A DNA stretch of 38,886 nt from Clostridiales bacterium. GTDB taxonomy: Bacteria > Bacillota > Clostridia > HGM11327. Positions 18,966 to 38,886 of this stretch are shown piece by piece. The stretch covers positions 1-38,886 of the forward strand of contig SVGI01000011.1 of the NCBI GenBank assembly GCA_015056385.1, in the 5' to 3' direction. Position numbers and translations under genes: made by a program. Under the pieces are notes generated by a model. It saw nothing but the letters and a program-made list of their open reading frames with translations. It was not told the DNA's origin and did no database searches. Position 1 is the stretch's first letter. Every line of letters begins with the position of its first letter.

Positions 18966-19044
18966 GTGAAAAACATTTGTTCACGCCGGAAATGAAAAAC
19001 ATTTGTTCACGCCAGAAGCGAGAAACATTTGTTCACGCCGGAAA
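18966..19044 (+). repeat. Three tandem 26-bp repeats (tgaaaaacatttgttcacgccggaaa)
   Basis: Copies at 18967-18992, 18993-19018 and 19019-19044 with 2-4 mismatches. The core GCGTGAA...TTCACGC is an inverted repeat. Confidence 0.9.
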
Positions 19045-19076
19045 GGAAGGCTTTCGATAAACGAAAGCCATGGTTA
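19041..19076 (+). repeat. 36-bp direct repeat, copy 1
   Basis: GAAAGGAAGGCTTTCGATAAACGAAAGCCATGGTTA; contains hairpin GGCTTTCG-ataaa-CGAAAGCC and an ATG. Identical to copy 2. Confidence 0.95.
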
Positions 19077-19077
19077 G

Positions 19078-19128
19078 GGTTTTGTGGCCTTCGCCACCAA
19101 AGTGGTGGCGATTTTGCAGAGCAAAACC
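19078..19128 (+). other. Nested/alternative hairpin module between the two 36-bp repeats
   Basis: GGTTTTG/CAAAACC outer stem enclosing TCGCCACC-aaagt-GGTGGCGA. Alternatives GTGGC-cttc-GCCAC and TTTTGC-aga-GCAAAA compete for the same bases. Confidence 0.7.
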
Positions 19129-19143
19129 AGCCCCAATTCCCCA

Positions 19144-19179
19144 GAAAGGAAGGCTTTCGATAAACGAAAGCCATGGTTA
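19144..19179 (+). repeat. 36-bp direct repeat, copy 2
   Basis: Exact second copy of 19041-19076, offset 103 bp. Confidence 0.95.
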
Positions 19180-27118: not shown

Positions 27119-27454
27119 TGAGCGGGTCAGGCGGTCGCGTGCCTTTACGGTGCGAGGAAAGTCCGGGCTCCACAGAGCAAGGGTGCCGGATAACGTCCGG
27201 TGAAGGCGACTTTAAGGAAAGTGCAACAGAAAATAACCGCCGTGCGTTATGCGCGGTAAGGGTGAAAAGGCGAGGTAAGGGCTCACCGCATTCCCGGAGA
27301 CGGGCGTGGCAGTGTAAACCCCACCCGGAGCAAGGCTGAGGGCAAAAAACGGTTGCTCGCCGTGTCCTCGTGAGTGCCGCTTAAGCCACTCGGCAACGGG
27401 TGGCTTAGATAGATGACCGTCCAACGACAGAACCCGGCTTACCGATCCGTCTCA
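27119..27454 (+). ncRNA. rnpB: RNase P RNA
   Basis: GAGGAAAGTCCGGGCTCCACAGAGCA (P4/CR-I region), ACAGAACCCGGCTTA (P4' / CR-V), terminal P1 pairing TGAGCGG/CCGTCTCA. Confidence 0.95.
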
Positions 27455-27461
27455 ACAATTT

Positions 27462-38564: not shown

Positions 38565-38639
38565 TAAGTATGTACTGTGTATGGTGATATATTCCTATAA
38601 CAAAGCCCGTACAGAATGGCGAGTACTCGTAAAACAGTT

Positions 38640-38678
38640 AAATCCGACCTATGGTTTCGATCACAGGTCGGATTTTTG
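38640..38678. terminator. Strong intrinsic-terminator-like hairpin
   Basis: AAATCCGACCT...AGGTCGGATTT (11-bp perfect arms) followed by TT on the plus strand. No assigned plus-strand gene lies upstream. Confidence 0.6.
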
Positions 38679-38701
38679 CAATAATTACCGGTTTCGGAAA
38701 G

Positions 38702-38752
38702 GCTCCCTTATGTAAAGGGAGCTGTCAGCGAAGCTGACTGAGGGATTGTTTT
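38702..38752. repeat. REP-like two-hairpin repeat overlapping the 3' end of the DUF559-like gene
   Basis: GCTCCCTT-atgta-AAGGGAGC then GTCAGC-gaa-GCTGAC then TGAGGGATTGTTTTAC. It resembles a dispersed repeat I recognise from many Clostridia genomes; not searched here. Confidence 0.7.
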
Positions 38753-38886
38753 ACCGCAACATCAATATACTCGCAAACTCCACGGAAGTTTCCGGTGACT
38801 TCGTTGTTAGGAATACGAATCACGCGAAGTCCATATTCTTCCAGAAAAGCAGTACGGTCTGCATCGTTTTCCATCTCATCTATCTC
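38725..38886 (-). CDS. DUF559 (Vsr/restriction-endonuclease-like fold) protein, C-terminal part; 5' end outside window
   Basis: Minus-strand translation EIDEMENDADRTAFLEEYGLRVIRIPNNEVTGNFRGVCEYIDVAVKQSLSQLR*. It matches the familiar DUF559 C-terminus (DxxRxxxLexxGyrViRfxNxeV...NxegV). Absent from the ORF track because it has no start in the window. Confidence 0.8.
   Translation of the reverse strand, partial: EIDEMENDADRTAFLEEYGLRVIRIPNNEVTGNFRGVCEYIDVAVKQSLSQLR

Follow-up and report, generated by a model that had tools for sequence, protein, structure and literature searches.

A DUF559 gene between inverted double-hairpin repeats in Clostridia: a candidate REPIN-like mobile unit

DUF559 genes of Clostridia were found to lie between two similar but distinct hairpin repeats in inverted orientation, L on the 5' side and R on the 3' side, and the favored reading is that L-DUF559-R is a REPIN-like mobile unit with a Vsr-like nuclease as its autonomous partner (probability roughly 0.6, in the absence of any biochemical test). 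That the gene and its repeats form a mobile pair is likely; that the nuclease itself moves the unit is an inference without biochemical data, for which the odds appear evenly balanced. Linkage, co-occurrence and co-divergence of gene and repeats, covariation within the hairpins, purifying selection on the protein, differing presence between species, and several near-identical copies in the source genome are all shown.

The window, a stretch of 38,886 nucleotides, is the complete contig C23 of a 1.45-Mb MAG (G000, 84.6% complete). It is truncated within a DUF559 gene on the minus strand, and with the contig end falling inside the gene only the 3' part, 53 codons and the stop, is visible (38725..38886, identified by a Pfam DUF559 match and by translation). 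The reading frame ends in EYIDVAVKQSLSQLR-stop, with TGA at 38727-38725, and overlaps the right repeat R (38701..38750, minus strand), which is made up of two hairpins and a tail, GAGGGATTGTT. Hairpin 1 (GCTCCCTT/AAGGGAGC, 38702..38722, assigned by sequence and fold) lies past the DUF559 stop, and hairpin 2 (GTCAGC/GCTGAC, 38724..38738) codes for SQLR-stop. An earlier note, made without database searches, had described the final codons and stop as part of a repeat with two hairpins in these places, and that description was confirmed. As single-stranded DNA, R folds into both hairpins (z = -6.9), and hairpin 2 changes in sequence among relatives with its pairing kept. A generic pattern of the repeat is not explained by chance, because it turned up 10 times in the 1.45-Mb MAG and was present in 34 of the 388 genomes surveyed from the class, compared with no occurrences of a reversed-pattern control in the same MAG and genome scan. 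Elsewhere in the window, tandem copies of a 26-nt unit (GAAAAACATTTGTTCACGCCGGAAAT) adjoin a duplicated 39-nt stretch at the start of an ORF at 19070 (18968-19179), and a bacterial RNase P class A RNA is found at 27119-27458 (Rfam RF00010, 290 bits).

C23 continues on contig C18, where the missing 5' part of the gene occupies bases 1-300 and which begins with a 93-base exact overlap with C23. Another copy is split between contigs C11 and C68, and a further one is complete on C48, which brings the MAG to about three copies of the unit. The contig overlaps are by themselves ambiguous, as either C18 or C11 could be the partner of C23; the ends joinable via the DUF559 gene were paired as C23 with C18 and C11 with C68 because the host stem halves outside each copy match. 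The copies are 97-99% identical in the stretches compared (355/360 for C18 and C11, 236/240 for C23 and C68), except that C48 has extra sequence inserted in its R hairpin. The contig break is consistent with such a multi-copy, nearly identical element. The C48 insertion (locus L004, ~1400-1475) is a second small hairpin (CCCATTTTGGCAAAGCCAATAATTTTCGCAAGGG) placed in the loop of R hairpin 1.

The left repeat L (AAAGCCTCCCTTGTGTAAAGGGAGGTGGCACGGCGAAGCCGTGACGGAGGGATTGTT) stands immediately 5' of the DUF559 ATG on C18 and terminates in a Shine-Dalgarno-like GGAGGG six bases upstream of it; L and R are similar, non-identical, and inverted. A matching 5' repeat was found on C18, C11, and C48. Of 80 relatives drawn from GTDB genomes, 64 had strict repeats on either side of the gene, 12 had a strict repeat on a single side, and the remaining 4 had only a degenerate form. 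DUF559 was the sole gene found between L and R. The outer ends of the unit are AAAG...CTTT, and no target-site duplication was recognised by eye, without a formal test. Flanks outside the unit are mostly unrelated among relatives, the exceptions being a small number of longer shared blocks and some shared extensions, which are the outer elements with terminal inverted repeats (TIRs) taken up further on. Hairpin 2 covaries: 52 distinct sequences were seen in L and 31 in R, with mean stems of 5.5 and 6.6 bp, respectively, compared with 3.2 and 3.0 bp in shuffles. Searches against Rfam, covering the window and five loci, returned no family matching the repeat and no group I intron.

Repeats without the gene were also seen. 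Among the loci examined, 14 gene-less doublets were found, every one of them composed of one L and one R in inverted orientation, and in 11 of these the spacer is 16-25 nt long and bears no resemblance to the ends of the DUF559 gene. One doublet of the source MAG takes up a cloverleaf fold when single-stranded (z = -10.3). These L-spacer-R doublets are likely to be non-autonomous derivatives of the L-DUF559-R unit.

Across the class, type-A repeats were found in 34 of 388 genomes and DUF559 relatives in 50, with both in 28, such that DUF559 was present in 28 of the 34 repeat-bearing genomes and in 22 of the 354 others (odds ratio 70, p = 2e-23). These counts take in repeats at the DUF559 gene itself, so the presence tests are partly built in, and since the genomes lack independence, the p values serve only as a guide. 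Copy numbers and subtype match are more informative. The median number of type-A copies is 6 with DUF559 and 1-2 without. A second subtype, type C (hairpin CTTCCCC..GGGGAAG, tail GATGAGGTG), occurs in 40 genomes at up to 90 copies per genome; its repeat was present in all 14 genomes with a type-C gene and in 12 of 36 other DUF559 genomes, and the other subtype match gave 18 of 18 compared with 10 of 32. Six genomes with no DUF559 match carry at least 8 type-C copies (up to 43), four of them having a genus code in common with DUF559-bearing genomes. On a protein tree from which the repeat-encoded C terminus was left out, repeat type required 11 changes compared with 39.8 when shuffled, and types A, B, and C alone required the minimum of 2. 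The repeat sequence co-diverges with the DUF559 protein. RAYT/Y1 transposases were considered as the partner of the repeat and rejected: no Y1 transposase (RAYT, PF01797) was matched in searches of the 84.6% complete MAG, and across the genomes of the class Y1 transposases showed no correlation with the repeats.

The DUF559 protein is under strong purifying selection, because its dN/dS is about 0.055 (median pairwise value over 319 pairs), and its likely catalytic residues do not vary among 36 sequences. The structures closest to a model of the protein (pLDDT 80) were NGO0050 (3hrl) and the homing endonuclease I-Bth0305I (3r3p), with a weaker match to Vsr (1vsr, E = 0.39); no match in this structure comparison had an E below 0.001. 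By sequence, 3hrl is a clear match to DUF559 (E = 6e-16). On the basis of the model, the protein is predicted to be, in all likelihood, a Vsr-like PD-(D/E)XK nuclease. YcjD has been assigned to the PD-(D/E)XK superfamily near Vsr (PMC1189080), and in Caulobacter the DUF559 protein VsrA has been reported to trigger SOS upon loss of the methyltransferase ScmA (PMC12907096).

Congeneric species differ in the presence of the unit at orthologous loci. In a genus of five genomes, G190 carries a DUF559 unit downstream of its HPr gene, and the remaining four genomes lack the unit at their orthologous HPr genes. One doublet is intact in G058; G190 and G104 have it only in decayed form, G401 and G149 lack it, and the flanks are 81-92% identical. 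No base-precise empty site was found between congeners, such junctions not being obtained because of intergenic divergence. Joined-flank matches at locus L023 resembled an empty site and turned out to be a copy without the gene that had decayed. Few relatives came from searches of phages and IMG/VR, and no empty sites from phages.

Outside Clostridia, 8 of 14 DUF559 loci had flanking inverted repeats exceeding all 300 shuffles; these loci, from plasmid-collection records of Deinococcota, Pseudomonadota, and Cyanobacteriota, are a small sample picked by query similarity. A Novosphingobium locus has a similar layout of hairpin 1-TGG-hairpin 2-ACGGAGGGG. In Escherichia coli, the DUF559 gene ycjD ends within a G/C-rich CCCTCACCCCAACCCTCTCCC repeat (L296, sap-fabI region), and its two flanks show no significant match to each other. 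At least 80% of the ycjD region is covered in 3367 of 5403 matching genomes; the others were rejected as a clean empty site, as the two examined (L297 and L298), which lack ycjD at this place, have an efflux operon beside sapF instead. In three Deinococcus species (L291, L300, and L301), DUF559 stands at differing positions in or beside the 4-hydroxyphenylacetate (hpa) gene cluster, and these loci offer a natural test for DUF559 movement.

In the window, the unit is itself nested in a second element. A terminator-like hairpin (AAATCCGACC...GGTCGGATTT, 38640..38675, assigned by sequence), common to class-1 units, lies between R and the TIR GTAAAACAGTT (38629..38639) of an outer class-1 element that encloses the unit and has DUF559 as its only evident gene. 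This outer element splits a host stem, because the stem halves stand at 38606..38618 (CCCGTACAGAATG) and at C18:542-554 (CATTCTGTACGGG). Such nesting in larger TIR elements was found in two subfamilies, and the outer flanks usually correspond to the two sides of a terminator-like stem (in 26 elements, complement scores averaged 14.3, compared with 7.1 for mismatched pairs). Class-2 elements (CTWAAGGACAGTTTT) have a varied cargo gene and hold a DUF559 unit, a gene-less doublet, or neither; with one outer cassette cargo, a gene-bearing unit in L203 and a gene-less doublet in L202 occupy the same place. The mobile elements bounded by CTWAAGGACAGTTTT at L201-L217 (G390-G399) are 0.8-2.2 kb long, stand mostly between terminator-like stem halves, and carry a methyltransferase, NUDIX, peptidase, sigma factor, and other cargo. 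No transposase was recognised in the outer TIR elements when their ORFs were read, without a family search, and the CTWAAGGACAGTTTT elements may conceivably be a separate cassette system of their own. Nesting does not explain the family, because many units show no outer TIR element. Part of the spread of the unit need not be its own doing, a possibility raised by the TIR elements that, in several subfamilies, carry the unit and also occur without it.

The proposal of the earlier note, that DUF559 and the repeat form a mobile or domesticated pair like that of RAYTs, is supported by these results, with recognition of hairpins or movement of anything by the nuclease remaining unproven. The check it had proposed, for a repeat at the 5' flank, was positive on C18, C11, and C48, and strict repeats stand on both sides in 64 of 80 relatives. 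None of the outcomes it had named as refuting was met: repeat abundance is correlated with DUF559 (odds ratio 70, with subtype match), strict repeats stand on one or both sides of 76 of the 80 loci, and simple vertical inheritance is at odds with related species differing at orthologous loci, although no base-precise empty site is at hand. Two refinements apply, the one repeat being two distinct ends, L and R, and the pair being nested in the window within a TIR-bounded element.

By analogy, the unit probably works like a REPIN-RAYT system (TnpA-REP; PMC3116915, PMC2817692, PMC8266576), with which it shares inverted hairpin-repeat doublets, solitary non-autonomous copies, a repeat-flanked nuclease gene, and co-divergence. 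It is not taken to be a member, because an HUH enzyme was sought and is not the partner. Its enzyme is a predicted PD-(D/E)XK Vsr-like nuclease and not an HUH tyrosine transposase, its ends carry two hairpins apiece and are consistently distinct from one another, and a genome holds several near-identical DUF559 copies, in contrast to RAYTs, which have been described as single copy. Like IS200/IS605 elements, the unit has left and right ends that differ, sub-terminal hairpins, and no evident target duplication, but it has no Y1 transposase and none was found in the source MAG. The predicted fold and invariant likely catalytic residues are those of Vsr and I-Bth0305I (EDxHD homing endonucleases), yet DUF559 lies between hairpin repeats at many unrelated sites and not in an intron. 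MITEs and mobile insertion cassettes are familiar elements in general; as in these, gene-less copies keep the ends of the gene-bearing element, and the outer TIR elements have varied cargo and no transposase, but the proposed autonomous partner is of no known transposase type. No paper linking DUF559 with inverted repeats was found in the literature searched, with preprints and most subscription papers outside its scope.

In the favored reading, the Shine-Dalgarno sequence ahead of the ATG comes from L, and R contributes the final codons and stop of a nuclease that would recognise its own subtype's repeat in folded form, either single-stranded or as a cruciform, and would cut or nick there. 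Repair or replication may then copy the unit to new sites in cis and doublets in trans. These steps are inferred.

Three other explanations were weighed. The L-R doublet could be the original element, moved by another enzyme, with DUF559 a homing-type invader that cuts gene-less doublets and is copied in by recombination using L/R homology. The resemblance to I-Bth0305I, the L202/L203 pair with and without the gene at one cassette place, and doublet spacers unlike the gene ends speak for this; the start signal in L and last codons in R, however, imply long co-adaptation, repeat type co-diverges with the protein, and no other mover has been identified, Y1 transposases being uncorrelated. It is considered unlikely, as is the view that DUF559 is a passenger serving stabilisation or defence, with repeats or TIR elements moved in trans by an unidentified transposase. 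Class-2 TIR elements with varied cargo, with or without DUF559, and repeats in some genomes lacking DUF559 fit a passenger, but L and R were found to enclose no gene other than DUF559, many units lack an outer TIR, the repeats fit the DUF559 subtype, and no transposase was recognised within the elements.

Least credible is that DUF559 is an ordinary Vsr-like repair endonuclease flanked by terminators or RNA-stabilising hairpins. The VsrA SOS link (PMC12907096) and the position of YcjD near Vsr (PMC1189080) are in its favor, and R followed by T-rich sequence resembles a terminator. Ordinary terminators, however, would not form solitary L + R doublets, would not track DUF559 subtype genome by genome, and would not match one another as inverted copies across tens of bases. 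Compared with these alternatives, the REPIN-like unit remains the preferred reading. A bolder version would make DUF559 proteins, as Vsr-like PD-(D/E)XK enzymes, a mobilising nuclease class of a new kind: helped only by host repair, they would carry themselves and G-rich double-hairpin repeats through several bacterial phyla, as counterparts of RAYTs with unrelated chemistry. As a whole, this version is judged more apt to be wrong than right.

Short G-rich hairpin repeats with no known source are common in bacterial genomes, and the DUF559 family is found widely but still lacks an accepted general role. If repeats and family do belong together, a single small nuclease would help to explain both. 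The spread of the repeats could be put to a direct test, using a protein of 122 residues and a substrate of 130 bases, and, if the reading is true, there would be a second, chemically different route to REP-type mobility beside that of the HUH transposases.
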